A stretch of DNA of 64,000 nt, from assembly GCF_000425305.1 (NCBI RefSeq), contig NZ_AUDE01000006.1, forward strand, positions 1-64,000, in the 5' to 3' direction. The notes beneath the pieces were generated by a model. It saw nothing but the letters and a program-made list of their open reading frames with translations. It was not told the DNA's origin and ran no database searches. Source of the DNA: Psychroserpens burtonensis DSM 12212. GTDB lineage: Bacteria; Bacteroidota; Bacteroidia; Flavobacteriales; Flavobacteriaceae. A program made the position numbers and the translations under genes. How positions within the stretch are numbered: the first letter of the stretch is position 1; every line of letters starts with the position of its first letter. Positions 7,691-62,000 of this stretch are shown here, one piece after another.

Positions 7691-8869
7691 TCATAGTTTA
7701 TTGCAAATGATTACTAACTTAACACCAAGAAGGTTTGTGGTAAAAAAAAGATAAGTGTGCCCTCCATCTTTAATACTATATTTCTTTCTTAAATTTTGAA
7801 CAGTCTCTGGGAAGTTTCTAGTTGTAATATTAGCTTGTGATATTTTAAGTGATTTTATATTCTTTTTGCTGTAATCTACTATGGATTCAATAGTAAAGGA
7901 TCTTCCAGGAAATATCAGGTGTTCATTGCTCGTGTATAAATGAGAGTGTTGGTGTATTTTTGAAATCTTCAATTGCTTTGATACACTATTAAAAGCACCC
8001 GATTTTAGAATAGCAGCATTTGGCTCATATAAAAAGTGTAAAGGATGACTTAAAATTGCATGGTGTGTGGCCTCATTCATTAATTTAAAATTAAAAACTT
8101 CTACAGAATTATTAACAATATTGGCGGTTTTAACTGTGATTTCTCCCTTAAAGTCGTTTTCTAATATCCATATAAGCTCCTTTACTTCATTTTTAACTGC
8201 TATGATATGAATGTCCTTAACGTGCTTTAATTCACTTATTCCTATGGATAAGTCTAATAAGGGAGATGTTTTAATGGCTATATTATTCGTGCGTTTAAAT
8301 AGAGTTTCTAAATGAAGAGGAACATTAGGTAAACACTCTTTGAGAAAAAAGACCTTGCCTTTGCTTTTATGTCTTCGGGAGGGATCTATATAAACCCAAT
8401 CATACTTATCTTTTTTTGAAAGCAAGTAATCTATGCCACTTGAGTTAACTGTTTTTATGTTTTTAACTTGTAGTTGAGTATAATTATAAGCTACTATTGC
8501 AGACAATTCCTCATCAATATCACAATATGTGACCTCCTTAAAATGCCTCGAAAAGTATAAACAGTCTACACCAAAACCTCCAGTAATATCTAATATTGAT
8601 TTTCCTGTAAATAATTTAGACTTATATTCTGCAGTGATTTCAGATGACGTTTGTTCTATGTTTAACTTGTTTGGGTAGTATATCTTTTCCGAAGAAAACC
8701 AAGTCGGTAACTTTTTTTTACACTTAACTTTAGCTTCAATTTGTTCAATAATTTCTTTGGTAGTAACCTTGCTAAAGTGAGTGCCTTTTAATAGAATACT
8801 GGATACTTCGGTATTAATATTATTAGAAATAAACTTTTGAATTTCGCTATTTAAAATGTCAGTATTCAA
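7691..8869 (-). CDS. class I SAM-dependent methyltransferase with THUMP-like C-terminal domain
   Basis: In this 392-residue protein the SAM-binding motif I is DITGGFGVDCLYF (about 95-107), followed by an acidic motif TYCDIDEELS. A catalytic-type motif VYIDPSRRHKSKG (about 157-169) has the DPxR arrangement. The C-terminus (RNFPETVQNLRKKYSIKDGG followed by HTYLFF) matches the THUMP-like domain seen in a Bacteroidota methyltransferase family. The substrate is probably an RNA, judged from the domain, but it is not established. It lies eight bases after the AI-2E permease gene in the same direction, so cotranscription is likely. Confidence 0.8.
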   Translation of the reverse strand: MNTDILNSEIQKFISNNINTEVSSILLKGTHFSKVTTKEIIEQIEAKVKCKKKLPTWFSSEKIYYPNKLNIEQTSSEITAEYKSKLFTGKSILDITGGFGVDCLYFSRHFKEVTYCDIDEELSAIVAYNYTQLQVKNIKTVNSSGIDYLLSKKDKYDWVYIDPSRRHKSKGKVFFLKECLPNVPLHLETLFKRTNNIAIKTSPLLDLSIGISELKHVKDIHIIAVKNEVKELIWILENDFKGEITVKTANIVNNSVEVFNFKLMNEATHHAILSHPLHFLYEPNAAILKSGAFNSVSKQLKISKIHQHSHLYTSNEHLIFPGRSFTIESIVDYSKKNIKSLKISQANITTRNFPETVQNLRKKYSIKDGGHTYLFFTTNLLGVKLVIICNKL

Positions 8870-8876
8870 ACGTTGA

Positions 8877-9965
8877 TTATAAGCCTTGCGTTAATTTTTT
8901 TACCATTTTATTATCTGATAAAAATTCTTTAAGAATCACCTTTATGGCCGTGTAGAAAGGAACTGCGACAATCATACCAACAACTCCAAAGAGTAGACCT
9001 GCAATTATTATGATTAAGAAAATCTCTAAAGGATGTGATTTTACACTCTTAGAAAATATAAAAGGCTGACTAAAGAAATTATCAACCAACTGCGCAATTG
9101 CTATAACGATAAATGTGTAAAATAATTTAGGTAAAACAATAACACTAAAGCTCTCACCGAGATTATTGGTCATTACTAAAAGCATCATAATAGCACCTCC
9201 AATTAATGGACCTAAATAGGGTATTAGATTTATTAAAGCACATAAAAAGGCAATAACTACAGCGTTTTCAATACCAATAATTAGTAAACCTATCGTGTAA
9301 ATAATGAATAGTATTAAGATTTGGAAGAACAACCCGACGAAATAACGAGATAACAAATCTGAAATCTTCTCAATAGACCGTTTCGTATTTGACTCTTTAT
9401 TATTAGGTACGAATGTCAAAATCCCTTGTTGAAATAGGTTTCTATCTTTTAAAAAGAAAAAAGCAATAAATAAAACAGACATCAAACCAATACTGAAACT
9501 TCCTAACCCAGAAACGATGCTATTTAAAAAGTTTGGTATGATACTATAATCCATACTCGACAATATTTTAGATTCTTTAATAGCTTGTTCTGCGTCGATA
9601 TGATTAATTTCTAAATACGTAATAGTTTCGGTATATAAAGATTCGATATTACTTTTAAGCTGATCTATATCTAGTAGTGATAAATTTTGCCCTTGTTCAA
9701 CTAAAAGCGGTATTAATAAGCTTACAATCCCTACAAAAATACCTACTAAAAAGACCATGGTTGCAACCACAGCAAGTGTGTTATTGAATTTTAGACGTCG
9801 TCTTAAAAACATAACAATGGGTCTTCCAATAAGTGATATTACGCCTGCAATAACGATATAAACAATTACAGATTGTATCTCATATAAGAAGTACAAAACC
9901 AATGAAACAGCAACGATTACGCCAGCTGCCCTAAGTATTCCGTATGAAATATTTTTAGAATTCAT
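8877..9965 (-). CDS. AI-2E family (PerM/YhhT-type) membrane permease
   Basis: The 362-residue protein has paired N-terminal transmembrane segments (about 10-45), a further segment near 60-85, a soluble helical middle (90-150) and a C-terminal bundle. It carries the family signature region NLIPYLGPLIGGA (about 246-258). The closing stretch GLLFGVVGMIVAVPFYTAIK is typical of PF01594. Members export small molecules or sodium; the AI-2 name is historical and the substrate here is unknown. It is in a minus-strand run with the methyltransferase genes on both sides. Confidence 0.85.
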   Translation of the reverse strand: MNSKNISYGILRAAGVIVAVSLVLYFLYEIQSVIVYIVIAGVISLIGRPIVMFLRRRLKFNNTLAVVATMVFLVGIFVGIVSLLIPLLVEQGQNLSLLDIDQLKSNIESLYTETITYLEINHIDAEQAIKESKILSSMDYSIIPNFLNSIVSGLGSFSIGLMSVLFIAFFFLKDRNLFQQGILTFVPNNKESNTKRSIEKISDLLSRYFVGLFFQILILFIIYTIGLLIIGIENAVVIAFLCALINLIPYLGPLIGGAIMMLLVMTNNLGESFSVIVLPKLFYTFIVIAIAQLVDNFFSQPFIFSKSVKSHPLEIFLIIIIAGLLFGVVGMIVAVPFYTAIKVILKEFLSDNKMVKKLTQGL

Positions 9966-9989
9966 GGAGTAAATATATAAAGACTTTAG

Positions 9990-10496
9990 TTAAGACTGTT
10001 TAAGTTGTTTGGTTATTTCATACAAAGTCACACTAGTGGCTTGTACGACATTCATACTGCTATTTTGGCCAAACATATCAATATGAATAACAGCATCACT
10101 CATATTTAAAATAGCTTCTGAAACTCCAAAATTCTCATCACCAATAATTAGTGCAATAGGTTTATGCTTCGGAAATGTGAAATCTATCAGAGCTTCGCTT
10201 TTTGATGTGATTTCAAGAGCAATTATAAAATAACCGTTGTTTTTTAAATCAGAAACTAGGGTTAACGCTTCATTTTCGTGTTTATACTTTACAGATTTCT
10301 CAGTAGCTCTTGATGTCTTCATCATTTTTCTACCTAAAGGCGTGTTATCTCCACAAAAAATCAATTCTTCAATACCAAAAGCATCTGCAGTTCTAAACAA
10401 ACTTCCAATATTTGGAGCATTAGTAACATTCTCACAAATGAGAGTAATAGGAAACGTTTTGTTGTTAAAGTTAGTAGAGTAGTGGTTTAGTTGCAT
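9990..10496 (-). CDS. TrmH/SpoU-family RNA methyltransferase
   Basis: In this 168-residue SPOUT methyltransferase, motif 1 is NVTNAPNIGSLFRTADAFGI (about 24-43) with the conserved Asn/Arg pair. Motif 2 is IALIIGDENFGVSE (about 133-146), and motif 3 is IDMFGQNSSMNVVQATSVTL, which forms the SAM-binding trefoil knot. It lacks an N-terminal RNA-binding extension, so it is a short form. The likely product is a 2'-O-methylated tRNA or rRNA ribose; the exact site is not deducible. A TTTCCGAAG-family repeat lies inside the gene at 10167. Confidence 0.85.
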   Translation of the reverse strand: MQLNHYSTNFNNKTFPITLICENVTNAPNIGSLFRTADAFGIEELIFCGDNTPLGRKMMKTSRATEKSVKYKHENEALTLVSDLKNNGYFIIALEITSKSEALIDFTFPKHKPIALIIGDENFGVSEAILNMSDAVIHIDMFGQNSSMNVVQATSVTLYEITKQLKQS

Positions 10497-10517
10497 TTGA
10501 TATAGTCGCGTAAGGTC

Positions 10518-11499: not shown

Positions 11500-11508
11500 C
11501 TTCGGAAA
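11500..11508 (-). repeat. intergenic copy of the dispersed 9-mer TTTCCGAAG
   Basis: CTTCGGAAA on the plus strand. This is the only one of the 19 exact copies that lies outside a gene. The other start positions are 8686, 10167, 13326, 17579, 23170, 29553, 30949, 37783, 40891, 41353, 43297, 48713, 50136, 51147, 54571, 56304, 57066 and 59266. The function is unknown. Confidence 0.6.
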
Positions 11509-13576: not shown

Positions 13577-16366
13577 TTATAACTGTTGATCTCTTTGTTT
13601 GCGTTTATCGTATTTAAGGTCTTGGAGCAAGCTAGATTTGATACCAATAAAGAAATTCCATTGGTTATTTGGACCAAAAGGAACCCAAGAAAAATTCATA
13701 CGCCAACTTAGTAAATCGCGTTCAAAACGCAATTGAGTTTGGGTAAACCCTTTGTTGGCAACATCATAACCAGAAGAGGCTCCAACAGACCATTTTGGTG
13801 ACAACTCAATATCTCCAGAGAACATTAAAGAATGACTCGTTATTGCGTTCTGTCTCGCTGCATTACCATAGTTAACAACGTAAGCCATTCGCAGGCTCCA
13901 TGGTATTTTGAAATTATATAACTCTGAGGGCTCTTCCTTTTTGTCTTTTAAGTCGCTATCATCTGTTAAACGCTGATCTGCAAAATCTTGAGGCCTCCCA
14001 AATAAATCATCTGCACGTCCACCACTTCTTAAATTATCTTGAATGGCAGGATCATCTTCATCTCCATTCCCTTCAAATGCGGAACTAGAAATGGAATAAC
14101 TAATGTTAAGGTTAGCAGAGGTTAGTCTAAATAAACTTCCTCCATTTTCAATATTAAATTTTTCAATTTTTCTATTATTGTTATCCAGTGCGTAAGGATC
14201 TAAAATCATCCCAAAGTTAATATTCATTTTATCCTTTAAGACTGTTGTTCCTCCAGAAACTCTTAATGGACTCCATTTTAAACTATCACCAGCGAAATTA
14301 TAAGATGTTTGAAAGTTAAGATTGTTTAGCAACTTAATTTTTTTAGGTTCTGTCGCGGTACTATCTTTATCGGTGACTTTGGCTTCAAAATTATTACCCA
14401 ATGAAATACCCATAGAGCTAGAGAAGTTTTGGTTTGGCGTTCCAAAGAGAGAGCCTTCAAACCTTGTGTATTCCTGTCGTTCTAACTCGTCTACGGTGTC
14501 GCCATCTGCATTTGCAATTGCAAAAGTATCGTAATATTGATCAAAAGCTGGATTGATGTTATAGCTTATTGATGGACGCATTACATGTCGTATTTGCTGA
14601 ATTTTACGCTCTTTGCCTTCTTTTCTAAAATCAAACATTCCATAGACTGTCGTACCAATACTTGTGCTGAAATTATAAGTTAAAAAACGATCAAAGTTGG
14701 TTAAATCTTCAGTAATAATTGTGCCTTCATCGTCTTCAAATCTTTTGATAGTATTGAACGTCCAATTCTCTTCAAAATTCATGCTAGCACTCATACTAAA
14801 ATAGTCAAATACTTTAAAGTTCGTAGAAACAGGAATAGAATGTAGCGTTCCTATTTTTGCATCATTGAACATTTCAGATTTAAGAAACAAGGAGTCTGTA
14901 GTTCGAATCCTGTTTTCTCCTCTAACGTTATATTGAAAGTTTATATTTTGAATAATTCCTTTTTTTGATCCGGTTTTAGGTGCAAATGGAAACATTCTAC
15001 CTACACTCGCTTGCACTGTTGGTAAGGTTAAATTAATTTCTTCTGTATTGGTGTTTTGAGAATGCGTAGCTGTCACATTCATATTAACCTGTGGCTCTCC
15101 TTGAAAAGTTTTAGAATAAGATACCGATGAAGCCAAGGTATTGTTCAGTGCACTTGCCAAATTTAATTGGTTTATGGACTGCCTAAAAAACTGACTACTA
15201 CCTAAGTTTACGGATGCCGAAAACCTAGAACTTGGATTGGATTTTCCATCTTGACTATGAGACCAACGAATATTATAAATCGTTGACTTTGCAAAGTCTG
15301 GGAAACCAGGTTCGCTATTAATTAAATTTTCATACCTAAAACTTAAATTTCCATTAAATTTATAACGTTTAGCATAATTAGATTCTAAACGCAGACCATA
15401 ACTTCCATTGGTATAGTAATCTCCTAAAACCGCTAAATCAAGATAGTCGTTAATCGCAAAATAATACCCTCCATTCTGTAAAAAGTAACCTCTATCATTT
15501 GCTAATTCCTGTCCAGGTGTTGGCATAATAACACCAGATGTTTGCTTTTTAGACATCGGAAAATAAGCAAAAGGTAGCCCAATTGGCGTTGGTACATCGT
15601 ATATAAATAAGTTTGTAAATCCTGTAACTACTTTTACACCAGGAACGACTTTAGCTGTTCTCATTAAAAAATAATATTCAGGGTCGTCAAGGTTTTCAGA
15701 AGTTGTAAACTTCCCATCTTTAATAAAAAGGGTAGAATCATTTTCACGTTTAGTAATCGCTGCGATAATGGTTCCGCCACTTTCTTCTGTTTTAGAATTG
15801 TAAATAATAGCTTTTTTAGTAACGGTATTAAATATGACAGAATCTGGTTCCACAATACTTTGTCCTTGTGTAAACACAGGTGCTTGAGAATAATTCCCTA
15901 AACTATCTTTGAGACGTCCTGCATAGACTAAATCTTTACCGTGATTAATGACAATAATACCAGATTTGATATTCATGTCACCGTAATTAACTTCGGCTTC
16001 ATTGTATAAGGTAGTTGTGTTTTTTCGCTGATCTAATCGCACATAATCTTTGGCTTTATAATCCACGATACTTGTGAGAAATTCTTTTTTCTTCGGAATA
16101 GAATCCGTCTTTGTGCTATCTGATTCTTTTATGTTTTTGGGTGTATCGAGCATCTTTCCAATGCTTATAACAGTTGTATCATTAACTATGGTATCATTTT
16201 TTGTTACAGGCCTAATTGGCTCCTTAGATTTAGGTAATTCTTGAGCCCAGCAAAACATGTTGATAAACATGGTAAAACTTAGGGTAAAAAGTATGTGTAA
16301 GCTTTTTGTATGCAACGCTTTTAAATGTATTTTTGCTAAAGTATGGCTCGGTTTTTGAATTCCCAA
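13577..16366 (-). CDS. lptD: LPS-assembly outer-membrane protein LptD
   Basis: The 929-residue protein starts with a long signal region (residues 1-42, ending FCWAQ) and a Pro/Asp-rich linker. An OstA/LptA-like beta-jellyroll follows (LYNEAEVNYGDMNIKSGIIV near 121). A large beta-barrel carries the Bacteroidota LptD signatures VPTPIGLPFAYFPMSKKQTS (about 264-283) and GVIMPTPGQE. It ends in aromatic-terminated strands (WSVGASSGYDV, WRMNFSWVPFGP). It inserts LPS into the outer leaflet with a lipoprotein partner not encoded here. It is divergent from the amidase gene across a 122-base gap. Confidence 0.88.
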   Translation of the reverse strand: MGIQKPSHTLAKIHLKALHTKSLHILFTLSFTMFINMFCWAQELPKSKEPIRPVTKNDTIVNDTTVISIGKMLDTPKNIKESDSTKTDSIPKKKEFLTSIVDYKAKDYVRLDQRKNTTTLYNEAEVNYGDMNIKSGIIVINHGKDLVYAGRLKDSLGNYSQAPVFTQGQSIVEPDSVIFNTVTKKAIIYNSKTEESGGTIIAAITKRENDSTLFIKDGKFTTSENLDDPEYYFLMRTAKVVPGVKVVTGFTNLFIYDVPTPIGLPFAYFPMSKKQTSGVIMPTPGQELANDRGYFLQNGGYYFAINDYLDLAVLGDYYTNGSYGLRLESNYAKRYKFNGNLSFRYENLINSEPGFPDFAKSTIYNIRWSHSQDGKSNPSSRFSASVNLGSSQFFRQSINQLNLASALNNTLASSVSYSKTFQGEPQVNMNVTATHSQNTNTEEINLTLPTVQASVGRMFPFAPKTGSKKGIIQNINFQYNVRGENRIRTTDSLFLKSEMFNDAKIGTLHSIPVSTNFKVFDYFSMSASMNFEENWTFNTIKRFEDDEGTIITEDLTNFDRFLTYNFSTSIGTTVYGMFDFRKEGKERKIQQIRHVMRPSISYNINPAFDQYYDTFAIANADGDTVDELERQEYTRFEGSLFGTPNQNFSSSMGISLGNNFEAKVTDKDSTATEPKKIKLLNNLNFQTSYNFAGDSLKWSPLRVSGGTTVLKDKMNINFGMILDPYALDNNNRKIEKFNIENGGSLFRLTSANLNISYSISSSAFEGNGDEDDPAIQDNLRSGGRADDLFGRPQDFADQRLTDDSDLKDKKEEPSELYNFKIPWSLRMAYVVNYGNAARQNAITSHSLMFSGDIELSPKWSVGASSGYDVANKGFTQTQLRFERDLLSWRMNFSWVPFGPNNQWNFFIGIKSSLLQDLKYDKRKQRDQQL

Positions 16367-16488: not shown

Positions 16489-17610
16489 ATGAAAACGACA
16501 TTACATTACCGTATAGTATTAGTGAGTTTGTTATTTACCAGTATTTTAACATCTGCACATGCATTTCAAAAAAACAAAGATAAATTTGTTGTTGTATTGG
16601 ATGCAGGTCATGGTGGTCATGATTCTGGTAACCTAGGAAATGGACATAGAGAAAAAGATATTGCATTAAATATTGTCCTTCATGTTGGTCAGGAGCTTGA
16701 AAAAAACAAGGATATTAAAGTTATTTATACTAGGGATAAAGATGTTTTTGTAACCTTAAGAGGACGAGCAAAAATCGCGAATGATGCAGATGCAGATCTA
16801 TTTGTCTCGGTGCATTGTAATGCACATCATTCTCAGGCCTCAGGAACTGAAACGTTTGTATTAGGTGTAGCAAATACCAAACGTAATATGGAAATTGCAA
16901 AAAAGGAGAATGAAGTTATTTTTCTTGAAGCAGATTACGAGAAACACTATGAAGGTTTTGATCCAAACTCACCAGAATCCCTTATTACTCTAAGTTTTCT
17001 TCAAGAGGAGTATACCGAGAATAGTATCAAACTAGCCAGAATGGTTGAGGATAATTTTGAGCAAGGTCTCAAGCGTAAAAGTAGAGGTTTGAAACAAGCG
17101 AGTTTATGGGTTTTGCATAATACGTATATGCCAAGTGTCCTTATAGAGGTGGGCTTTTTGACTAATAAAGGAGAAGGTGAATTCTTAAATACCAAGACAG
17201 GTCAAACAAAAATGGGGTCGGGTATAAAAAAAGCAATATTAGGATACAAGACGTATATAGAGCAAAATGTAGGAGAAGATATTTATAAAGGAACCAAAGT
17301 AGGCAACAATAATATGGAGTCAAGCGGTGAGCCGCAAATTATAGAAAATGTCGTGTTTAAGGTTCAAATTGCAGCCAGTTCTAGAGAAATAGCGCCTAAG
17401 TCTTATAATTTTAAAGGCTTATCAGGTATTACTAGAGAAAAAGTAGGTGAAATTTATAAGTATTATCATGGTGCTACTTCAGATTATAATAGGGTAAAGC
17501 AACTACAGTCGAATGCAGTATCTAAAGGTTATAAAGACTGCTTTGTTGTGGCTTATAAGGATGGAAATAAAACAGATGTTTCCGAAGCAATAAAACCAGC
17601 ATCTAATTAG
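16489..17610 (+). CDS. N-acetylmuramoyl-L-alanine amidase (AmiC-type) with SPOR-like C-terminus
   Basis: The 373-residue protein has a signal peptide (1-25, ending AHAF). The Amidase_3 zinc site is visible: VVLDAGHGGHDSG (His41), Glu55 in GHREKDIALN, FVSVHCNAHH (His109) and the catalytic Glu in LIEVGFLTNKGEGEF (about 220). It cleaves the amide bond between MurNAc and the stem peptide during cell separation. The last 90 residues (VVFKVQIAASSREI, then YYHGATSDYNRVKQLQ, GYKDCFVVAY) look like a SPOR-type peptidoglycan-binding domain that would direct it to denuded septal glycan. It heads a plus-strand run with the MCE gene. Confidence 0.9.
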   Translation: MKTTLHYRIVLVSLLFTSILTSAHAFQKNKDKFVVVLDAGHGGHDSGNLGNGHREKDIALNIVLHVGQELEKNKDIKVIYTRDKDVFVTLRGRAKIANDADADLFVSVHCNAHHSQASGTETFVLGVANTKRNMEIAKKENEVIFLEADYEKHYEGFDPNSPESLITLSFLQEEYTENSIKLARMVEDNFEQGLKRKSRGLKQASLWVLHNTYMPSVLIEVGFLTNKGEGEFLNTKTGQTKMGSGIKKAILGYKTYIEQNVGEDIYKGTKVGNNNMESSGEPQIIENVVFKVQIAASSREIAPKSYNFKGLSGITREKVGEIYKYYHGATSDYNRVKQLQSNAVSKGYKDCFVVAYKDGNKTDVSEAIKPASN

Positions 17611-22029: not shown

Positions 22030-23509
22030 TTTCTCAAAACCAATTAGGCAATCATCAAAAGGTATTATCATCATATTTGCATTTAATGCTTATAATTTTG
22101 TACGCCGTTTTTTTGTCTTGTTTATTGCTTTTGGAATCTCACTAACAAAGAAAAAAACATTTGCCCATGTTACACCTACAGTAATTTTCTTGGTTATTAT
22201 AGGTATCCTTATTGTATTGCTTGTTTTAGCAATACTTAAGTATTTAAATTTTAAATTTTATTTAAGTAAGGATGACTTTCACTTATCTACCGGAATCATA
22301 AATAAGGATAATACAATTATTTCAAAGTCAAAAATTCAAAACGTCTACATCAAACAGAATTTTTTGCAGCAGATCATCAACGTGGTATCCTTAAATATAG
22401 AAACAGCGGGTGACAACAAATCTGAAATCTCTATAAAAGCATTAGATAAACCCACAGCTTTAAAATTAAAGAAAGAACTATTTACAAAATCAAATAGTAC
22501 AGAAACACTAACAGATGTGGTCGAATCTAGAAACGTTTTCTTTCGAGTATCATTAAAACGTCTTTTTTTAGAAGGAATTTCTCAAAATCATCTGCGCAGT
22601 TTTCTTATCATCACCTCTTTTGTTTTTGGTTTATATTATGAATTTAAAGATTATTTTCGAGATTTAAAACTCAAACAAGGTCTAGAGGAGCTCATTCATT
22701 TAGATAAAGAAAGTCTTCTAAATATTATAATAATTAATACTGTATTTATTCTTGTCGCAATACTCATTTCTCTACTATTTTCGGTTCTTAAAACCGTAGT
22801 AACTAATTTTAATTTAGAAGTTGTAGAAAACCAAAAAACTATTGAGATTAATAAAGGCCTATTTAATAAAGTATCACTGAGTTTAACACCAAGTAGAATT
22901 CAAAATATAGTTATAAAAACAAATCGTATCAAACGCTATTTTGATTTACATACACTCTCTGTTAAACAAGCTATGGTGACTGTTAAGCAGCGAAAAAACT
23001 TTGTTATCATTGCCTTAGAAAAAGAGCAATTAAAACATTTAGTTGATAAGCTATTAGTTAATTATACGAGTGCTATTGAGAGATCAAACCCAAAAGGGTA
23101 TTATAAACGTATCTTGGCCTTAAACATGTTCGCCTTAGCATTAATTATCAATGTTCCTGGGTTTATTCTCTTCGGAAATATAATGTGGTATATCAATATC
23201 GCGTTGGTATTATTTTCAGTTTTATACGTGACAGTAACTTACAGAAAAGCTTTTTATAAAATTGATGACCAATTCCTAACCATAGGAAGCGGATTTATAG
23301 ACACCACTACTAACATTTTAGAAATTCATAAAATTCAAGCGGTCAAATTAAAACAAACCATCTTTCAAAAACGCATACAAATTTCATCTGTAATTATATC
23401 GACAGCCTCTAAATCTGTTAAAATACCATATGTTTCAGAAACTGAAGCAAAATCAATTTATGATTACTTATTATTTAAGGTGGAATCACAGAATAGAGAT
23501 TGGATGTAA
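22016..23509 (+). CDS. multi-PH-domain membrane protein (YdbT-like)
   Basis: The 497-residue protein has about six transmembrane helices in three pairs, each followed by a bPH2 domain. Repeated sequence marks are FHLSTGIINKDNTIISKSKI with QNVYIKQNFLQQI, then IEINKGLFNKVSLSLTPSRI, then LTIGSGFIDTTTNILEIHKI. Each of the three ends in an I-x-I-A/S-T or T-V-K-type strand. The partner is the YdbS-like protein, whose gene overlaps it by 14 bases, so a complex is likely. The role is unknown. Confidence 0.88.
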   Translation: MKASDFSKPIRQSSKGIIIIFAFNAYNFVRRFFVLFIAFGISLTKKKTFAHVTPTVIFLVIIGILIVLLVLAILKYLNFKFYLSKDDFHLSTGIINKDNTIISKSKIQNVYIKQNFLQQIINVVSLNIETAGDNKSEISIKALDKPTALKLKKELFTKSNSTETLTDVVESRNVFFRVSLKRLFLEGISQNHLRSFLIITSFVFGLYYEFKDYFRDLKLKQGLEELIHLDKESLLNIIIINTVFILVAILISLLFSVLKTVVTNFNLEVVENQKTIEINKGLFNKVSLSLTPSRIQNIVIKTNRIKRYFDLHTLSVKQAMVTVKQRKNFVIIALEKEQLKHLVDKLLVNYTSAIERSNPKGYYKRILALNMFALALIINVPGFILFGNIMWYINIALVLFSVLYVTVTYRKAFYKIDDQFLTIGSGFIDTTTNILEIHKIQAVKLKQTIFQKRIQISSVIISTASKSVKIPYVSETEAKSIYDYLLFKVESQNRDWM

Positions 23510-47359: not shown

Positions 47360-47429
47360 GGTGTGTGTGTTTTTTTATTCCTAGGTCAACAAGGGCATGA
47401 CGACTCAGGCATAAGGCCTTAATATTAAT

Positions 47430-49751
47430 TTAATTCTCTATTTTCACAAGAGATAGTTTTTTATTGTACGGTCGGTTACCTTTTAGTTCTAGAGCTTGAT
47501 TCGCTTCTTCAATACTTTCAAATTCATCGTAATAGATATAATATTTACTTGTATTAACATCATAAAAGAAATCAACATTTGTACGTCCAGAAGCGACTAC
47601 TTTAGTGATAAAAGCATTTCTTTTGTTAACTTCTGTATGCACTGCTAGTATTAAATAGTAACCATTATCTATGTTTTGTACATTCTGTAAAATTTGAATA
47701 TTATCACTTTGTTTTTCTCCAAAATCAAAATCTTCAACTGTGATTGAAACACTGCTCAAAGGCGTCGTTTGTTTTATGTTTTGTAAGGCTGCTCTGTCTT
47801 GAGAATAACGTTCTTCTTCGTTATCAAAAGCAGCTTTTTTGATACGACGTCTTCTTTCGAACTCTGTAGCCACTTTAATATCTGCTAATCTTATTTCTAA
47901 ATTTGTCCTAGCTTCAATTGTTTTTAATTGCTCAGACTCTAAACGTTTTAAAGTTTTTTGATAATAAAGATATACGTCATCGTTAGTTATAGTATCTGCT
48001 TCAAACTTATCGTCATATAATGCTTTAAGTTCTTTGATTTTTTCGTTTCTGTTTTTAATAACATCATCTAACTGTGATTTTATAACCTCCAATTTATTAT
48101 TCTCAGCTGTTATACTTTTAAAAGGTTTAGGACCAACAGTAATTCCTTTTTCGCTTAAATCATTTTCTTCTTTTAAATCCTTAAGGTCTTTATCTTTTCT
48201 TTCAATAATAGCATCAAAGTCTTGTAATAATTTAGATTGAATCGTTTTAGAGTCTTCTGTTTGTTTTGTAATCTCATACATAGATTTGCCAAGTTCATCT
48301 TTAGCATTAGAGATTAGATCTTCTTTAGCCTTTTGTTCTTCTAATAATTGAAATTGAGCATCTGCTTGTTCTTTAACTTTTTGTTCTGCTATTACTATAG
48401 CTTGAGCATCTGCTTGTTCTTTAGCTTTTTGCTCTGCTATTACTATAGCTTGAGAGTCAGCCTGTTCTTTAGCTTTTTGCTCTGCTAATAGTTTAGCTTG
48501 AGCATCATCAGCCTGTTCTTTAGCTTTTTGCTCTGCTATTACTATAGCTTGAGAGTCAGCCTGTTCTTTAGCTTTTTGCTCTGCTAATAGTTTAGCTTGA
48601 GCATCATCAGCCTGTTCTTTAGCTTTTTGTACTGCTAATAGTTTATCTTGAGCTTCTTTATCCGCTTTAACTTTGTCTTCATTAGCTATCTCAATGGTGG
48701 TTTCAGATTTGCTTTCCGAAGAAACCTCAGTAACTGCTGTCCTTTTAGGTTTAGAAGCTTTAATTATTTTAGGTTTTCTTTTATCATCAGAAATCAGCAA
48801 TCCGCTAACCTCGTCACCACTACTATAATCATATCTATTATTGCTCTTAAATCTATAAGCCAATGTGAAATCATGAGAAGATCCAAAGGTTGATAAATCA
48901 CCAATTGCTTTTTCATAATTATATTCTAATGCAATTTGTGACGTGATATTGATTCCTAGTCCGCCAGATACTCCAAAACGTGTGTTATAACCTACCTGCG
49001 CCCAAATCCCTTTTGGAACAGTTAGCATTGCCATAGCTGAAATAATAGTATCGTCCTTTTGAAATTCTGATCTTAATAAGCCTGTAAACTTACTTTCATC
49101 GAAAAAACCTCGACTTGACATCATATACCCCGTATACATAATATGTCCTTGAATACCTTGTTGAGGGTTATCCTCAATAAGCATAGACGATTCAAAATTG
49201 TAGAGTGCTAAATTATTTATAGAGACGCCAAAATCAAAAAATCCTGTACCATAATTAATACCTGGATTTACAGTTAATAATAAATTCTCAGGTATATTTT
49301 GCAATGCAGGATCGTCAAAATTCGTAATAACATTTCCTGTATTAATACCGCTTTTATAAGCCGCAATATTAAGACCAAATGTTAAGTTACTATCTTTTTG
49401 TAATTGTACGTTGTAAGCGAAATTTAGATTACCACCAAAGGTTGTTAATACACCATAATTTTGTTGAAAAACACCTATTCCTGCTCCAATATTCTCACCA
49501 AATCTACCAGAATAACTGGCTAAATAGGTGAGTGGTGCATTTTCAAATTCCACCCATTCTCTTTTATTAAAAATACTAATGTATTTGGTTTGCTCTCTAA
49601 CGAAGCTGAATGTAGGGTTTATTACATAACGATTAAAGGTTAACGAATTTCTAAGAGGTAGGCTCAACGATACCACTCCATTATCTTCTTGAGAATAGAA
49701 CATCTGTATAGAAAAGATACATAATACTAAAACAAAAAGATATGTTTTCAT
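47430..49751 (-). CDS. PorP/SprF barrel fused to a repetitive coiled coil and SPOR-like C-terminus
   Basis: In this 773-residue protein, residues 1-310 are a PorP/SprF barrel with signal peptide (FYSQE), LPLRNSLTFNRYVINPTFSF and a closing HDFTLAYRFKSN. Residues 360-470 are about seven tandem 16-17-residue units of the kind AEQKAKEQADSQA or KLLAEQKAKEQADDAQA. More coiled coil follows (480-650). The last 100 residues (YYLILAVHTEVNKRNAFITK, then FYYDEFESIEEANQALELKG) fit a SPOR-like domain. This could tether an outer-membrane T9SS partner to peptidoglycan (inference). It lies between two T9SS cargo genes. Confidence 0.85.
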   Translation of the reverse strand: MKTYLFVLVLCIFSIQMFYSQEDNGVVSLSLPLRNSLTFNRYVINPTFSFVREQTKYISIFNKREWVEFENAPLTYLASYSGRFGENIGAGIGVFQQNYGVLTTFGGNLNFAYNVQLQKDSNLTFGLNIAAYKSGINTGNVITNFDDPALQNIPENLLLTVNPGINYGTGFFDFGVSINNLALYNFESSMLIEDNPQQGIQGHIMYTGYMMSSRGFFDESKFTGLLRSEFQKDDTIISAMAMLTVPKGIWAQVGYNTRFGVSGGLGINITSQIALEYNYEKAIGDLSTFGSSHDFTLAYRFKSNNRYDYSSGDEVSGLLISDDKRKPKIIKASKPKRTAVTEVSSESKSETTIEIANEDKVKADKEAQDKLLAVQKAKEQADDAQAKLLAEQKAKEQADSQAIVIAEQKAKEQADDAQAKLLAEQKAKEQADSQAIVIAEQKAKEQADAQAIVIAEQKVKEQADAQFQLLEEQKAKEDLISNAKDELGKSMYEITKQTEDSKTIQSKLLQDFDAIIERKDKDLKDLKEENDLSEKGITVGPKPFKSITAENNKLEVIKSQLDDVIKNRNEKIKELKALYDDKFEADTITNDDVYLYYQKTLKRLESEQLKTIEARTNLEIRLADIKVATEFERRRRIKKAAFDNEEERYSQDRAALQNIKQTTPLSSVSITVEDFDFGEKQSDNIQILQNVQNIDNGYYLILAVHTEVNKRNAFITKVVASGRTNVDFFYDVNTSKYYIYYDEFESIEEANQALELKGNRPYNKKLSLVKIEN
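48330..48650 (-). repeat. in-frame tandem repeat coding the coiled coil
   Basis: Units of 48 or 51 bases encode alternating KLLAEQKAKEQADDAQA and IVIAEQKAKEQADSQA. A block of about 99 bases containing one of each is duplicated almost exactly. Such near-identity makes the region prone to slippage and length change between strains. Confidence 0.85.
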
Positions 49752-49752
49752 A

Positions 49753-51216
49753 TTATTTAACTACTGTTATAGAACCCTTTTTGGTTTCGTTATTACTCGT
49801 TGTTATCATGTAATAAAATACTTGATTAATACTATTTAAATTCAGCTCATTTTCTGGCCAATTGTTGAGATAGTTATTAGTTTGTAATACGACTTTCCCT
49901 GCGTTGGTAATAATCATGACCTCCGTACTTGTACCGCTTATATAAGTCATTGGAATGGTCCATGTATCATTAATACCATCACCATTTGGACTAATTACAT
50001 TTGGAATTTTTTCTACATCAGGAAAGGCATCAAAAGCTTCTTCTAATTCAAATACAAATTCTCTAGAACCTAAACAACCAGACGTTTCTGTTACGATAAC
50101 TTTATAGATACCAAATTGTGATATATTATAACTCTCTTCGGAAATAGTAGCGATTAAGACATCATTTAAATACCATTCAAATTCTGGATTATTAGCATTA
50201 GTTGTCACTTCTATTGAAAGTGTTTCACCATCTTCAATAGTATTAATCTCAGGAACATTTATAGAGGCATCAAATAATTCACTAATGAGCTCAATTTCGC
50301 CGGCTGCCACGCAATCTCCTAGGTCTACTTGAACTGCATAGTTACCAGATTCACTAGCTTGATACATTTGCGTCGTTGCTTGCGCAATTATATTGCCATC
50401 CTTAAACCATTGGTAGGAATTACCACTAATAGTGCTTAAGGTTGTGAATTCACTACTTGGGCAAAACGGATTACCTAAACTTGAAGAAATACCAGCATCT
50501 GAATTACCAGATGTTACTTCGCTAATTGTTACACGATTTGAAAAAGAATTTGACGTACAAGTACCATAATTGGTTTCTACAAAGAAAGTACCTGGTTCAT
50601 TTACAGTAAGAGAAGAACCATCTGAAACAAAAACAAATGTTGTTGGCCCAGTTTCCTTATACCATTTATAGGTAAGTGAAGGGTAATTGAGTGGTGAATC
50701 ATTTGATCCAGTTCCAGGGTTATCGATGGTTAATAGATAACTTCCACCAGAACAATAGACTCCTGTAGAAACTAAATTATTAATAGTAAAAGGTGAATCC
50801 TGAATTTTATAATAGGCTGCAAACGCTGTAGATCCCGAACTGGTTGCTGCAGGAGCACTACTTTTTATTCGTATTCTATAATTTTCTCCGGCTGTTGTTG
50901 TGGGTAATGAAAAGTCTAACGTTGCAGGTGACGTGGTCACTGCTCCAGGATTAGATGTAAAAACAGCTATTGCATTTGTAAAATCACCATCTGCTTCAGA
51001 CAGCTCTATTATGAACTGGTTTGATGAACTGAGGCCTTCCTCCGGAGAAAAAACAAAGGTTGTGTTATACGTATTAAATGTACCACTCGCGCAAGCTTGA
51101 CTAAATCCTAAATTAGGGGAACCAATAACAATTTGGGCTTTAAGTTTTTCCGAAGTAAAAAGTAGAAAAACACAAAGTCCGATAAAAATTTTATATGCAA
51201 GTTTAGGGTTATACAT
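49753..51216 (-). CDS. secreted Ig-like protein with type B T9SS sorting domain
   Basis: The 487-residue protein has a signal peptide (about 1-27, ending KAQIV). Several beta-sandwich (Ig/PKD-like) domains follow, with repeated motifs LTYKWYKETGPTTFVFVSDG, NSYQWFKDGNIIAQ and FEWYLNDVLIATI. The C-terminus has KIPNVISPNGDGINDTWTIP (about 403-422) followed by VMIITNAGKVVLQTNNYLNN, a gliding-motility-associated type B sorting domain. It ends one base before the start of the fused PorP gene, so the two are translationally linked. Probably a surface protein of the same machine. Confidence 0.88.
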   Translation of the reverse strand: MYNPKLAYKIFIGLCVFLLFTSEKLKAQIVIGSPNLGFSQACASGTFNTYNTTFVFSPEEGLSSSNQFIIELSEADGDFTNAIAVFTSNPGAVTTSPATLDFSLPTTTAGENYRIRIKSSAPAATSSGSTAFAAYYKIQDSPFTINNLVSTGVYCSGGSYLLTIDNPGTGSNDSPLNYPSLTYKWYKETGPTTFVFVSDGSSLTVNEPGTFFVETNYGTCTSNSFSNRVTISEVTSGNSDAGISSSLGNPFCPSSEFTTLSTISGNSYQWFKDGNIIAQATTQMYQASESGNYAVQVDLGDCVAAGEIELISELFDASINVPEINTIEDGETLSIEVTTNANNPEFEWYLNDVLIATISEESYNISQFGIYKVIVTETSGCLGSREFVFELEEAFDAFPDVEKIPNVISPNGDGINDTWTIPMTYISGTSTEVMIITNAGKVVLQTNNYLNNWPENELNLNSINQVFYYMITTSNNETKKGSITVVK

Positions 51217-54391: not shown

Positions 54392-54394
54392 GCT

Positions 54395-55306
54395 CTATTT
54401 CTCAATCACTAATCGTTGGCCTATTTTAAGTACCGCGTTTCGTCCTATAGTATTTGTTTTGCACAACGAATTAATAGATACATTATTGCGTTTTGAAATT
54501 CGTGATAATGTGTCTCCAGATTTTACAACATAAATGGATTTCTGTTTTATTAGACTTGCAATGGCTTCTTCTTCGGAAAATAGAAGATCAATTTTACTTT
54601 GTCTTTTAGAATTATGACTATTTGGACGTGTCCATCTTTTAGTAATCCAAAGTTCATTGGCTCTAATTAAATTTTGTTCATTAAAGTCAAACAAATACTC
54701 AGGGTTTATAGATACACCATTATAGTTTACAACTAGATGTAAGTGACTTCCTCTAGCATTGCCAGAAACACCACCTTTACCTATATAATGACCTTTTGCA
54801 ATTGTATCGTTTTCTTTTACACCATATTCTGATAGGTGTGCGTAAACGGTTTCTAATCCATTATAATGTCTGACGACTACTGTTTTTCCATGTCCAATGC
54901 TATAGCGAGACATTCTAACAATACCATCAAACATAGTATATAAACTGTCACCAGTTACCAAATCAATATCAATACCTTTATGAGCTCGTCCTCGTCTCCA
55001 ACCATATCGAGAAGTAATCACTTTGTTTTTTTCTATAGGAGAGTGATACGTAGAGTCCTTAAATTGAAGTAGTAAAGGGAATTTAACGATGACATCTTTG
55101 TATGGATTATAAACGGTATGATCCCAATAATTTGCTTTGATATCTACGAGAGTAATTGTTTCCTTTGTAGTTTTAGCTTCTGCAACGTCTAATGTAACTT
55201 TTTCAAAACTAAATTCTGAAAAATCAATTAATTGAAGTTTTGGGTCTTTTTGAGCGTAGACACTTAAAGATAGTGTCATTAAAAGACAAATACATATAGA
55301 TTTCAT
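54395..55306 (-). CDS. M23 metallopeptidase with C-terminal LysM domain
   Basis: From the ATG at 55306 the product has about 303 residues with a signal peptide (MKSICICLLMTLSLSVYAQ). An earlier ATG at 55336 is possible. The LytM-type zinc peptidase domain shows HKGIDID (HxxxD), SRYGWRRGRA before it, and GSHLHLVVNYNG (HxH) with the second motif HGKTVVVRHYN. The C-terminus holds one LysM (YVVKSGDTLSRISKRNNVSI with NSLCKTNTIG). It should cut peptide crosslinks of peptidoglycan or activate amidases. It is convergent with the dioxygenase-like gene. Confidence 0.9.
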   Translation of the reverse strand: MKSICICLLMTLSLSVYAQKDPKLQLIDFSEFSFEKVTLDVAEAKTTKETITLVDIKANYWDHTVYNPYKDVIVKFPLLLQFKDSTYHSPIEKNKVITSRYGWRRGRAHKGIDIDLVTGDSLYTMFDGIVRMSRYSIGHGKTVVVRHYNGLETVYAHLSEYGVKENDTIAKGHYIGKGGVSGNARGSHLHLVVNYNGVSINPEYLFDFNEQNLIRANELWITKRWTRPNSHNSKRQSKIDLLFSEEEAIASLIKQKSIYVVKSGDTLSRISKRNNVSINSLCKTNTIGRNAVLKIGQRLVIEK

Positions 55307-55915: not shown

Positions 55916-56836
55916 TTAAAAGATACTCAACTCTGAATGCGTTGTAACTTCTTCAAGTAATTTCATGCCTTTAAAAGAATTTCCATTAGGATTTAATTTC
56001 GGACTCCAAACAGCAATCGTATAGTTATGAGGATATAGTGCAACAATACCACCACCAACACCACTTTTCCCTGGTAATCCAACTTTAAAAGCAAATTCTC
56101 CAGACTCATCGTAGAAACCGCAGGTCAGCATGAGCGCGTTTATACGCTTAGATTTGCTTTTTGAAATAATCTTTCGTCCATCAACTAATTGACGCCCACC
56201 ATTGGCCAAAAATCCAAATGTATGTGACAATTGTTGGCAGGTCATTTCTATAGAACACATATCAAAATAAAAATCAAGGACCACGTTTGGTTCATTTTGA
56301 ATATTTCCGAAGGACTTAATAAAATTACATAAGGCTACGTTTCTATAACCTGTCGCTTTTTCAGAATCTGCTATTTGATCAGAATAGGTAAGATCAGGTA
56401 TGCCACTTAAATCTCTTACAAACTCCAGAAAATCTACACTTGCATTATCCAAATGAGAAATTAGAATATCACAAATAACGATAGCTCCAGAATTTACAAA
56501 CGGATTTCTAGGTATTCCCTTATAGCTTTCTAATAATAATAGCGAGTCAAATTTTGTTCCTGACGGTTCTACATCTACACGGTCCCATAGTTTTTCACCA
56601 ACGATTTTATAAGCTAGGGCAAGTGAAAGTACTTTGGTTATACTTTGGATTGAGAATTTTTCTAAATGATCACCCATTCCAAAGTGAGTACCATCAACTT
56701 TAGTCATGTGAACTCCAAATTTAGAAGGATCTACATTGGCTAATTCAGGAATGTACGTGGCTAATTTACCTTTGCTATCTAATGAATTAGATAGATTATA
56801 AGCGTTTTCTGTAATGTTTTGGTAGTTTGAATTCAT
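55916..56836 (-). CDS. glsA: glutaminase
   Basis: The 306-residue glutaminase is of the serine-dependent, beta-lactamase-like fold family. It hydrolyses L-glutamine to glutamate and ammonia. The catalytic SxxK is SITK in FSIQSITKVLSLA (Ser65, Lys68). Other marks are RNPFVNSGAIV (about 114-124), CQQLSHTFGFLANGGRQLVD (about 199-218), VGLPGKSGVGGGIVALYPHN (about 252-271) and a closing WSPKLNPNGNSFKGMKLLEE. Length is normal. It may support nitrogen supply or acid tolerance. Single gene. Confidence 0.95.
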   Translation of the reverse strand: MNSNYQNITENAYNLSNSLDSKGKLATYIPELANVDPSKFGVHMTKVDGTHFGMGDHLEKFSIQSITKVLSLALAYKIVGEKLWDRVDVEPSGTKFDSLLLLESYKGIPRNPFVNSGAIVICDILISHLDNASVDFLEFVRDLSGIPDLTYSDQIADSEKATGYRNVALCNFIKSFGNIQNEPNVVLDFYFDMCSIEMTCQQLSHTFGFLANGGRQLVDGRKIISKSKSKRINALMLTCGFYDESGEFAFKVGLPGKSGVGGGIVALYPHNYTIAVWSPKLNPNGNSFKGMKLLEEVTTHSELSIF

Positions 56837-57045: not shown

Positions 57046-57837
57046 TTATATGTGTTTAGTTGATGTTTCCGAAGAAAACTTATTACTTTTTATAGGGATA
57101 GGCTTTAACTGAATAAAACCAAACCCATCGAGGATCTTTATAATAACATACGTTACATCAATTTCATACCATTTTACACCAAAGTTAGCACGACTAGCAT
57201 GTTTATGATGATTATTGTGATAACCTTCACCCATCATTAAGAAATCGAAACGAAATAGATTTTTACTCGTGTTTTTCATTTTAAAATTTACATAGCCATA
57301 AATATGACCAAACCAATTAATAATCACACCATGAATAGGCGCCATTAAAAACGTAATTGGCAATAATAACCATTGCCACCAAGCTGTTACAAATAATGCA
57401 AAGAATAAAATGTATAGACCTATCCAAAGCACTCTAGACCAGCGAGAACTTGCAAATGCATCAAAAGCTTTCCATTGTGGTACATTTTTAGTAAAACGTT
57501 CATCAACTGCAATACGCTGTGTATTAATGTCTTGATAGATGGTTTTAGTTTTCCACATCATAGCAAATACATTATCATCGTGAGAAGGTGAATGCGGATC
57601 TTTTTCAGTGTCCGTATAGGCATGATGCATACGATGCATGATCCCATAACCATAAGCACTTAAATAACTAGAGCCTTGAAAAATCCAAGTGAGAACAAAA
57701 GTAATACGCTCCATAGTTTTTGACATCGTAAAGACCTGATGGGCAGCATAACGATGTAAGAAGAATGATTGGAAAAATAAGCCACCATACCAAAGCACTA
57801 AAACAAAAATAATAATAGTCATATCTTTTTTTTGCAA
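57046..57837 (-). CDS. acyl-CoA/fatty-acid desaturase (delta-9 type)
   Basis: The 263-residue membrane di-iron enzyme introduces a double bond in fatty acids. It has three His boxes: HRYAAH (about 28-33), HRMHHAYTDTEKDPHS (about 68-83) and YHNNHHKHAS (about 207-216). Four transmembrane stretches lie around them (about 5-25, 40-58, 130-165). It is shorter than eukaryotic delta-9 desaturases but normal for bacteria. It would keep membranes fluid in the cold. Single gene, with a strong terminator at 56957. Confidence 0.9.
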   Translation of the reverse strand: MQKKDMTIIIFVLVLWYGGLFFQSFFLHRYAAHQVFTMSKTMERITFVLTWIFQGSSYLSAYGYGIMHRMHHAYTDTEKDPHSPSHDDNVFAMMWKTKTIYQDINTQRIAVDERFTKNVPQWKAFDAFASSRWSRVLWIGLYILFFALFVTAWWQWLLLPITFLMAPIHGVIINWFGHIYGYVNFKMKNTSKNLFRFDFLMMGEGYHNNHHKHASRANFGVKWYEIDVTYVIIKILDGFGFIQLKPIPIKSNKFSSETSTKHI

Positions 57838-59001: not shown

Positions 59002-59070
59002 TTCTCCTGAAAATAGCCCAATTGCTACTCATCTATAATCGTTACTCCATGTATCCTACAGTTATTTAAT

Positions 59071-59078
59071 TATATTTG
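59071..59078 (+). promoter_or_regulatory. -7 element of the Asp-box protein gene
   Basis: TATATTTG matches TAnnTTTG, 17 bases before the ATG at 59096. No TTG lies at the expected distance. Confidence 0.4.
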
Positions 59079-59095
59079 AAATAAAAATAAATACT

Positions 59096-62000
59096 ATGAA
59101 AAAAATATCCATTCTATTCCTATTTTTTATATCGTGTTTAGTTTTTTCACAATCTTCAGCTCCAAACAAATCAAGTGATTTATATAAAACTGCCCCAGAA
59201 TGGGCAAAACTTATGTATACAGATAATCCTAATGTTGATAATGTAGATAACTTGTATAAGGCGTATTTCCGAAGTGCTTCTTTTAAAAAAACATTTCATA
59301 CACAGTACTATAAGCGATGGCGTAAAGCTATTAATAATTTCATAGGAGAGAATGGTTTTTATGATCCTTCAAAGAAACTTAAACTTAGAGATATTCTCTA
59401 TGAAAGAGAAGCTAATAATGACCAAGATGTACATAGAAGGGTGGGAAATTGGTCTGTTCTTGGTCCTTTTCAAAATTTTAAACAGGGAGGTGTCGTTTCA
59501 AGTGGCGCACAAGCTAATGTGTATAGTATTGGCCAATGTGCTGCTATTCCAAGCGTCATGTATTGTGGGACGGAGAATGGAGAGGTTTATAAAACCTTAA
59601 ACGGAGGAGATTCTTGGGTTAATGTATCACTTAATTTATTAACAGCACTTGCGCCTCAAGTTGTTTTAGCAAACGCTGGTATAGCAGCGTTAACTGTTCA
59701 CCCTACAAATCCTGATGTTGTGTATATCGGTTCTGGTAGTGAGATTTTTAAGACTATAGATGGCGGTATCAATTGGAATGTTGTGTTTGATAGCGCTATT
59801 ACTTTATCTGGATATATCGAAAATCCAGCAGAAATTTTTATCAACCCAAATAATCCTCAAATTGTACTAGTTGCTAGTAAAGCCGGTATGCATAGATCGA
59901 CCTCTGGAGGGGCTTCTTGGTCACAGGTACTTAATTTTGAGTGTTTTGACGTAAAAGCCCAACCTGGAAACCCAAATACACTCTATACCATAAGGCGTAA
60001 CAATAACAATACTATACACCAGTTTTTGAGATCTACTGATGCTGGTTTAACTTGGACAGCTCAAACAACAGGTTGGTACACGTCTACAAATCCAAACCGT
60101 AGCGTTGTAGGAGCAAGAATAGCAGTTACAAATGCTGATAACCAAAGAGTTTATGCGTATTTAATTGGTGATTCCAAACCTGAGGATAATGGTTTTATTG
60201 GTATTTATAGAAGTGACGATGGTGGTACAAGTTGGACTAACACGATGACTTATGATGGTGCTCCTTACACAGATCCAGAACATCCAAACCTTATATCTTC
60301 TACCCCTGTAACTAATAATTTTAGCTTTAACCAAGGTTTTTATAATTGTGCTATAATGGCTTCAAATACCAATGCAGACGAGCTTTTGGTTGGAGGTATT
60401 GGCATGTGGCGCTCTAGTGATGGCGGACAATCGTTTCAATGTATCTTTAATTATGGTTGTGGAGATTATAACCCGATGCACGTAGATATGCAAGATTTTA
60501 GAGCTTTTGGAAACGAATATTGGGCAAGTACCGATGGGGGTATTTATAAATCTTTAGATTTATTTAACTCGCAACCAGAATTTAAAATGAATGGCGTACA
60601 TGGTGTTGATTTTTGGGGCTTTGGTTCTGGTTGGAACAATGACTTATTAATTGGAGGTACGTTTCATAATGGTGTTGATGTTTATTATGAAGGATTTCCT
60701 AATGGTGCTTTTTTAGATTTAGGAGGAGGAGAACCTGCTTCAGGTTACGTTAATCCTGGTAATGATTTACGAATTTACTCTGAAAATATTGGGAGTAAAA
60801 TTATTCCGCAATCTATAACTGGTGCAGTCATCAATGCTCCAATGGGGCTATTACCTACAGAGAGTCCTTGGTTTGCAGAATCTTCAGAAATGGAATTCCA
60901 CCCAAGTTGTTATAACCATGTGTATCTTGGTAATGCAAATCAGCTTTTTAAAAGTATCGATGGTGGTGCTAATTATAGTGCAGTGTATACATCAGCCTCT
61001 CCAAGTAATGACGTTTTAGGTATAGAAATTTCTCGCACAAACACAAATACTATGTATGTTGTAGAGCGAGTTCCAGGAAGCACACCAATACTTATGAAGA
61101 CAACAAACGATTGGGAAACTTCAAGTACAGTCTCGTTGCCAACAGGTTCTAATTTTGGGCCACTAGCGATAATTAGTATGGATCCAGAAAATGATCAAAT
61201 TATTTGGTTAGCGTATCCAAGAGGTAATGATGGTAATAAAATATTTAAGTCTATTAACGGAGGTGCTTCATGGGCTAATGAAACCTCTAGCGAGTTAGAT
61301 GCTCAAAATATTCAAGATATGACGACTATTGGTGGAACTGATGGCGGTGTTTACATTAGTACAAGTGCTTCAGTATATTATAAAAATAATACGATGAGCT
61401 CTTGGGCTATTGATAATGCTAATCTGCCTGCAACTATTGGAACTCAAGGTATCAGACCTTTTTATCGCGATGGAAAAATAAGACTAGCGAGTTATGGGAA
61501 AGGTCTTTGGGAAAGCCCTTTATTTGAGACGCCTAGTCGTCCTGTAGCTAAAATCATGGTAGATAAGTTAGCCGCTAATTGTATTAATGACATCTTTTAT
61601 TTTGATGATTATTCTATGCTTGATCATGATGGAGCAACTTGGGCTTGGACCTTTGACAATGGAACTACCCCTACATCAAATCTTAGAAATCCTCAAGTCA
61701 CATTTACAACAACAGGAAGTCATGTAGTGACACTTACAGTTACAAATGCTGCTGGTATTCAATCTAGTGATTCAATAACTGTTGATGTCTTAGCGATAGA
61801 GTCTACTGCAGTTATGGAAGATTTTGAAACTGAATTTGTACCTCAAAACTGGACACTAAATACGACAGGGAATTTTACTTGGACATATAATAACACCGTT
61901 GGAGGATTTGGAACAACAACAAACTCAATGTCAGTCAATAATTTTGTAGTGTCAGACGTTGGCGCGTATTGTGATGCCATCATACCTATAAATTTATCCA

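Follow-up and report, generated by a model that had tools for sequence, protein, structure and literature searches.

A dispersed nine-base word in Psychroserpens burtonensis as a candidate DNA-uptake sequence of flavobacteria

Background

Why should one nine-base word, TTTCCGAAG, occur 19 times in 64 kb of a bacterial genome? The stretch in question comprises positions 1 to 64,000 of contig NZ_AUDE01000006.1 of the flavobacterium Psychroserpens burtonensis DSM 12212, and we refer to its full length of 64,000 nucleotides as the window. A first-pass annotation of its letters had listed as possible roles of the word a DNA-uptake word, a Chi-like or segregation signal, and a modification or binding site. 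Among these, a DNA-uptake word fits best, and we hypothesize, with a probability of roughly 60%, that TTTCCGAAG together with an adjoining A-tract serves a group of flavobacterial genera as their DNA-uptake (self-recognition) sequence. We favour this reading, which is drawn from sequence comparison, because the features of the word match those of the Haemophilus and Neisseria uptake sequences, intergenic excess aside. Chi-like and segregation roles, the latter of the kind played by the FtsK-orienting words (KOPS), are disfavoured because those words are polar and TTTCCGAAG is not: it shows no strand polarity in its own genome or in those of two relatives, G241 and G101.

Uptake sequences have been described from Pasteurellaceae and Neisseriaceae (PMC1939737, PMC7811141). 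They are reported to favour neither orientation, to be unevenly spaced, to have flanks less conserved than the core, and to be in excess in non-coding DNA, with about 10% in inverted repeats (PMC1939737). The flavobacterium R. columbina prefers its own DNA; the authors left the signal open (PMC7965970). We found no paper in the open-licence literature on a flavobacterial uptake word, nor one on Chi or an over-represented word in Bacteroidetes or flavobacteria, and when the letters of TTTCCGAAG were used as a query, the titles among the matches listed were unrelated.

Results and discussion

The excess is genome-wide and acts on DNA

The genome to which the window belongs (G000; 3,976,448 bases in 68 contigs) contains 698 copies of TTTCCGAAG, 339 on one strand and 359 on the other, against 67 copies (30 and 37) of the reversed word. 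This is an approximately tenfold difference, far from a count near expectation, and corresponds to one copy per 5.7 kb. To the window we added 400 kb of the same genome (17 stretches of contig 1 and three of contig 2), giving a sample of 464 kb with 104 copies, in which open reading frames (ORFs) are the longest non-overlapping frames and not an annotation. Conditioned on the proteins and codon usage of the 381 ORFs in this sample, 3.64 in-ORF copies are expected; 94 are observed. Taken one by one, the six strand-frame classes all have ratios of observed to expected copies between 22 and 41; the reversed word, by comparison, is found in ORFs five times against an expected 4.45. Given the similar excess in all six classes, we conclude that the bias acts on DNA, as the first-pass annotation had proposed in attributing the copies to selection or spread on DNA rather than on protein. 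Its remark that the copies use rare codons also stands: TCC, TCG, CGG and CCG account for 5.5%, 6.4%, 2.9% and 7.6%, respectively, of the codons for their amino acids in this genome. In the 400 kb sampled from G101 (43% GC), the in-ORF ratios range from 4.6 to 19.5.

Copies in the window

All 19 copies lie where they had first been placed, 13 on the plus strand and six on the minus strand. The earlier hand estimate of less than one copy agrees with Markov expectations of 0.31, 0.40 and 0.88 (orders 2, 3 and 4; both strands of the window), and under each of these orders TTTCCGAAG ranks first in over-representation among window 9-mers with at least six copies. The flanks, said often to extend to TTTCCGAAGAAA, do so in eight of the 19 copies. 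One copy (11500) falls outside every ORF of at least 100 aa; the other 18 are inside ORFs and use all three codon frames. Four near copies with CTTCGGAA only are likewise present. The copies, placed by exact match and ORF map, and the near copies are as follows.

8686..8694, plus strand, TTTCCGAAG copy
10167..10175, minus strand, TTTCCGAAG copy
11500..11508, minus strand, TTTCCGAAG copy outside ORFs of at least 100 aa
13326..13334, plus strand, TTTCCGAAG copy
17579..17587, plus strand, TTTCCGAAG copy
23170..23178, minus strand, TTTCCGAAG copy
29553..29561, minus strand, TTTCCGAAG copy
30949..30957, plus strand, TTTCCGAAG copy
37783..37791, plus strand, TTTCCGAAG copy
40891..40899, plus strand, TTTCCGAAG copy
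41353..41361, plus strand, TTTCCGAAG copy
43297..43305, plus strand, TTTCCGAAG copy
48713..48721, plus strand, TTTCCGAAG copy
50136..50144, minus strand, TTTCCGAAG copy
51147..51155, plus strand, TTTCCGAAG copy
54571..54579, minus strand, TTTCCGAAG copy
56304..56312, plus strand, TTTCCGAAG copy
57066..57074, plus strand, TTTCCGAAG copy
59266..59274, plus strand, TTTCCGAAG copy
16091..16098, minus strand, 8-base core only, ATTCCGAAG form
34788..34795, minus strand, 8-base core only, CTTCCGAAG form
37374..37381, minus strand, 8-base core only, ATTCCGAAG form
44767..44774, minus strand, 8-base core only, ATTCCGAAG form

With 19 copies against the 11.2 predicted from the genome average, the window is richer than the genome. 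The left 8.6 kb had been singled out as accessory DNA free of the word. It does lack copies, but the probability of this by chance is 0.05 at the window rate and 0.22 at the genome rate; avoidance of accessory DNA is not significant in the window, and this empty stretch is uninformative on accessory DNA.

Among other features of the window, an ORF of 984 aa (25718-28672) fuses a family 3 glycosyl hydrolase with a beta-lactamase-fold domain, and one of 2740 aa adjoins PorP/SprF-like and CHU_C proteins in a type IX secretion-type gene cluster (39137-51216). The word CAGGAAC (22 against 4.8 expected) and the palindrome TAGCGCTA are mildly over-represented.

Anatomy of the core and its A-tract

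Aligning the 104 copies of the 464-kb sample, we observed an A-tract at positions +9 to +14 after the core, with up to 76% A, and weaker preferences farther out. The tract is alike in 47 sense, 47 antisense and 10 intergenic copies; therefore it is also a feature of the DNA. In a single-change test, core positions 2, 4, 6, 8 and 9 tolerate hardly any change, position 1 partly tolerates C and A, and position 7 partly tolerates any base. The pattern of tolerance is alike in G000, G101 and G241, with position 5 tolerating T in the latter two, and suggests one kind of reader. Two further forms, TTTCAGAAA and CTTCAGAAA, occur in G101 and G241 5.5 to 10 times as often as expected, and one of their flanks is A/T-rich. 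A mobile mini-element is disfavoured: around the 104 copies only the core and the A-tract stand out, and 13 of 15 sites align without gaps to the congener G045.

Distribution and dialects

A search with one window protein brought up named relatives, among them Winogradskyella, Lacinutrix, Kordia and, at 83% identity, a metagenome-assembled genome (MAG) of Psychroserpens. In that MAG we counted 605 copies against 54, an excess without parallel in the 11 further named genomes that were searched, of which a Flavobacteriaceae MAG, G405, came highest (153 against 66). We then called a genome word-rich if it had 150 or more copies and the ratio to control was three or higher, and surveyed 397 genomes from 237 genera of the family together with 296 genomes drawn from the order. 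Within the family, 31 genomes spread over 20 genera are word-rich, 32 more are intermediate, and the remaining 334 have a median ratio of word to control of 0.66. The highest counts are 1166 against 93 (G279) and 1048 against 115 (G063). None of the genomes outside the family in the order survey reaches both limits, the nearest being G644 (146 against a control of 19) and G503 (147 against 46). G644, a 2.4-Mb genome of another family of the order, has several congeners with a milder excess of TTTCCGAAG, and may be an independent or an ancestral case of the word.

Judged by a count at least four times the control, the related form TTTCAGAAA is enriched in most rich genomes (26 of 31), some intermediate ones (11 of 32) and few of the others (6 of 334; the median ratio in these 334 is 1.96). 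The five rich exceptions are three genomes of Psychroserpens (1.75, 2.7 and 2.8), G058 (3.5) and G335 (2.3). G188 has 319 copies of TTTCAGAAA against 52, but just 21 of TTTCCGAAG. From this differing content of the two forms it follows that dialects exist, Psychroserpens having the strict CCG form. Four word-poor genomes, scanned over 119 kb each (against 400 kb for rich ones), gave no comparable word. Scores of up to 14.6 came from eight pooled Kordia loci; as these loci are orthologous, their counts are inflated and were not used.

Two other repeated elements were seen in these samples. In G241 (L123-L142) a second over-represented element, apparently unrelated to TTTCCGAAG, surrounds CAAAAATGGCA / TCAAAAATG, with 223 copies of CAAAAATG against 53 expected. 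In G021 (L189-L193, L167) a repeated stretch with GGGTGTCTAA (6 against 0.1) and CTTTTTAGAC (8 against 0.5) looks like a small dispersed repeat.

Conservation of sites between relatives

As controls for the conservation of sites we took 9-mers of equal composition with a CpG. Between P. burtonensis and G045, which is of the same genus (76 to 77% identity), five of 15 alignable word sites are unchanged, compared with 103 of 1229 controls (p = 0.007). G267 shares one of two sites (controls, 4 of 211), and the non-enriched Lacinutrix and Winogradskyella genomes share none of eight (controls, 14 of 461). At locus L009 of the Psychroserpens MAG alone, one of five sites is shared. Thirteen of the 15 sites of G000 align to G045 gap-free. 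Conversely, eight of 13 aligned G045 words are unshared, and five of these eight are one base from the G000 letters, in a count that sees ungapped words only; in the reverse direction, of 10 G000 words that are not shared, one differs from G045 by a single base and two fall at gaps. These numbers are small, and as far as the alignments go the word likely changes by point mutation in place.

Strand, placement and alternative functions

The copies have no orientation bias. Those within ORFs divide evenly by gene strand (47 sense, 47 antisense), and with the G-rich strand by local GC skew taken as leading, 52 of the 104 copies are on the leading and 52 on the lagging strand. In G241, sampled as 20 stretches of one 3.51-Mb contig, 35 of 69 copies are leading by the skew sign of each stretch; G101 has 37 copies on the plus and 44 on the minus strand, and the 31 word-rich genomes sum to 7681 forward and 7821 reverse copies.

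These counts bear directly on the possibility that TTTCCGAAG is the Chi-like word of an AddAB helicase-nuclease, at which degradation of a broken end halts and recombination starts. The density of one copy per 5.7 kb and the over-representation speak for it, as do two neighbouring ORFs with PDDEXK_1 matches, one of them weak, at G000:C12:82-88 kb. A leading-strand bias of 75%, the figure for Chi, is at odds both with the 52 of 104 copies in P. burtonensis (p = 4e-8) and with G241 (34-35 of 69; tested as 34, p = 5e-6). Neither an A-tract outside the core nor dialect drift within one family would be expected of Chi, and we consider this explanation unlikely. In E. coli, Chi is almost exclusively on the leading strand (PMC8022716).

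Somewhat more doubtful is the proposal that the word is bound inside the cell by a protein requiring many chromosomal sites, such as a nucleoid or segregation protein. Hundreds of sites on both strands, with a sharp core and a softer flank, would suit such a protein. FtsK-type words are polar, however, KOPS strongly so from origin to terminus, and TTTCCGAAG is not; its spacing is near random rather than even (coefficient of variation 0.87 against 1.00 for random, p = 0.07), and outside ORFs it is not enriched. Hairpin terminators were also rejected as a role. Neighbouring copies of the 9-mer less than 200 bp apart number six against 4.5 expected, one pair being inverted and less than 100 bp apart; for the 8-base core, there are 14 such neighbour pairs against 10.4 expected, three of them inverted and less than 100 bp apart.

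Improbable, too, is a role as self-mark of a modification system (restriction, BREX-like or other), for which a non-palindromic core of defined length would be suited: such systems turn over fast and seldom enrich their own word, and a word with related forms common to 20 genera would not be expected of them. Finally, although one frame holds 36 of the 94 in-ORF copies, codon or peptide preference (for Ile-Ser-Glu-Glu, for instance) has practically no chance of having produced the word as a side effect, refuted as this is by the protein-conditioned expectation (94 against 3.64), by an excess alike in the six strand-frame classes and by the same A-tract beside intergenic copies.

Competence genes and a candidate receptor operon

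Transformation of Riemerella requires ComEC, DprA, ComF and RecA, and in addition four proteins to which the well-known systems offer no relatives: a DUF5689 protein, an adjacent CarboxypepD_reg outer-membrane protein, a helix-hairpin-helix (HhH) protein and a DUF1343 protein (PMC8459023). Riemerella TonB mutants also transform less, the tonBB effect being ascribed by the authors to iron (PMC8383284). The P. burtonensis genome contains ComEC, an ORF of 290 aa with two HhH_3 matches (one more such match lies in a 720-aa ORF elsewhere) and a CarboxypepD_reg and DUF5689 protein pair that adjoins an exo/endonuclease family protein. This operon is related to the Riemerella transformation genes (PMC8459023), and its DUF5689 protein resembles the M949_1556 lipoprotein family (187 bits, below the cut-off of 475). 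By sequence, neither the DUF5689 nor the outer-membrane protein had a meaningful match among solved structures.

DUF5689 was found in 61 of the 64 genomes searched; in G284, G076, G073, G114 and others, the ORF, at about 720 to 760 aa, matches DUF5689 twice rather than once. At 40 fetched DUF5689 loci, 20 from rich and 20 from poor genomes, a large ORF of about 850 to 980 aa lies upstream, as two pieces in G021; we identified neighbours from their position, length and alignment, with Pfam searches on the P. burtonensis ones only. In a tree of the large upstream protein, all 20 rich rows fall into one group of 25 (support 99/99) in which five poor rows are nested, and the other 15 poor rows lie outside; the grouping probably mirrors the species tree. 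The presence of competence genes is uninformative as a marker of word-rich genomes, since nearly all genomes carry them. One pair of congeners speaks for the uptake reading. In G030 neither ComEC nor DUF5689 was found, a search for the outer-membrane protein gave only a 29% paralogue, and both words are scarce (TTTCCGAAG 35 against 74, TTTCAGAAA 136 against 93); G256 has ComEC and the outer-membrane protein, with 181 against 82 and 346 against 129. In G202 (68% complete), the DUF5689 and outer-membrane proteins were not found and ComEC was not listed. We regard the operon of outer-membrane protein and DUF5689 lipoprotein as a candidate only for the receptor.

How an uptake role would work, and what weighs against it

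If TTTCCGAAG is an uptake word, a surface DNA receptor would bind it, so that fragments bearing the word would enter cells more often; ComEC would bring in one strand, and recombination would swap the homologous stretch. Over time, word-bearing alleles would build up wherever the protein tolerates them.

Several observations weigh against this reading. We found no uptake experiment for this group in the open-licence literature. The tendency reported for uptake sequences towards an excess outside genes and towards inverted pairs is not seen: ten of the 104 copies fall outside ORFs, a share no higher than the roughly 12% of the DNA that lies there, close inverted pairs (within 100 bp) are rare, and close pairs occur roughly at chance. 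One of the two PDDEXK_1 ORFs, a point for Chi, resembles AddB (TIGR02786, E 1e-21, 77 bits, below the cut-off of 486). The Psychroserpens MAG shares three of eight sites against 52 of 420 controls (p = 0.07). ComEC is present in 354 of the 397 family genomes, including nearly all word-poor ones. The word-rich G302, whose genome is a single complete contig, yielded no DUF5689 and, for the outer-membrane protein, nothing closer than a 28% paralogue, and TTTCCGAAG still stands there at 322 against 98 and TTTCAGAAA at 680 against 71. Since G302 is rich yet lacks the pair, either the pair is not the reader, or its loss is recent, or there is another receptor. Decay of the word after loss of the operon was dropped as an account of G302, where TTTCAGAAA is as high as in its congener G101; TTTCCGAAG is lower there than in G101, a possible dialect shift.

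Going beyond the identity of the word, there is a broader proposal: that in a group of Bacteroidota genera DNA is tagged as self by an uptake word drifting into dialects, and that the surface receptor for this word has no kinship with the Neisseria and Haemophilus pilins. From the genome comparisons this strikes us as an even bet. If true, self-specific transformation would have arisen independently a third time, here in connection with the flavobacterial uptake machinery, which is poorly understood. The candidate bears on the independent evolution of self-recognition and on why one flavobacterium prefers its own DNA without a known signal (PMC7965970), offers a testable handle on flavobacterial DNA uptake, and, should flavobacteria that resist transformation become tractable once the word is added, might aid their genetics. 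Even leaving function aside, an enrichment that reaches 22-41 fold in this genome whatever the reading frame, and that 20 genera show in varying degree, calls for explanation.

Comparison with known systems

The marks of uptake sequences that TTTCCGAAG shares are a genome-wide excess, the lack of orientation bias, softer flanks and dialects among genera; the mark of Chi and KOPS, polarity, it lacks. Like the uptake signal sequence (USS) of Haemophilus influenzae and other Pasteurellaceae, it has a 9-base non-palindromic core without orientation bias, lies mostly inside ORFs, has a softer A/T-rich flank and is unevenly spaced (PMC1939737). Unlike the USS, it has one flanking A-tract rather than two spaced tracts, shows no excess outside ORFs, differs in letters and phylum, and is as yet a candidate for uptake. 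With the dialects of the Neisseriaceae DNA uptake sequence (DUS), it has in common that a short word is over-represented and has related forms among genera (PMC3630211); unlike the DUS, it has no excess outside ORFs and few inverted pairs. RecBCD/AddAB Chi sites are likewise over-represented oligomers, and the P. burtonensis genome has an AddB-like gene, but TTTCCGAAG is without their leading-strand polarity. The transformation system of Riemerella has, like this genome, ComEC, an HhH protein and the outer-membrane/DUF5689 pair (PMC8459023); that system is not known to have an uptake word, and the listing for R. columbina gave only A/T-rich raw k-mers (PMC7965970).

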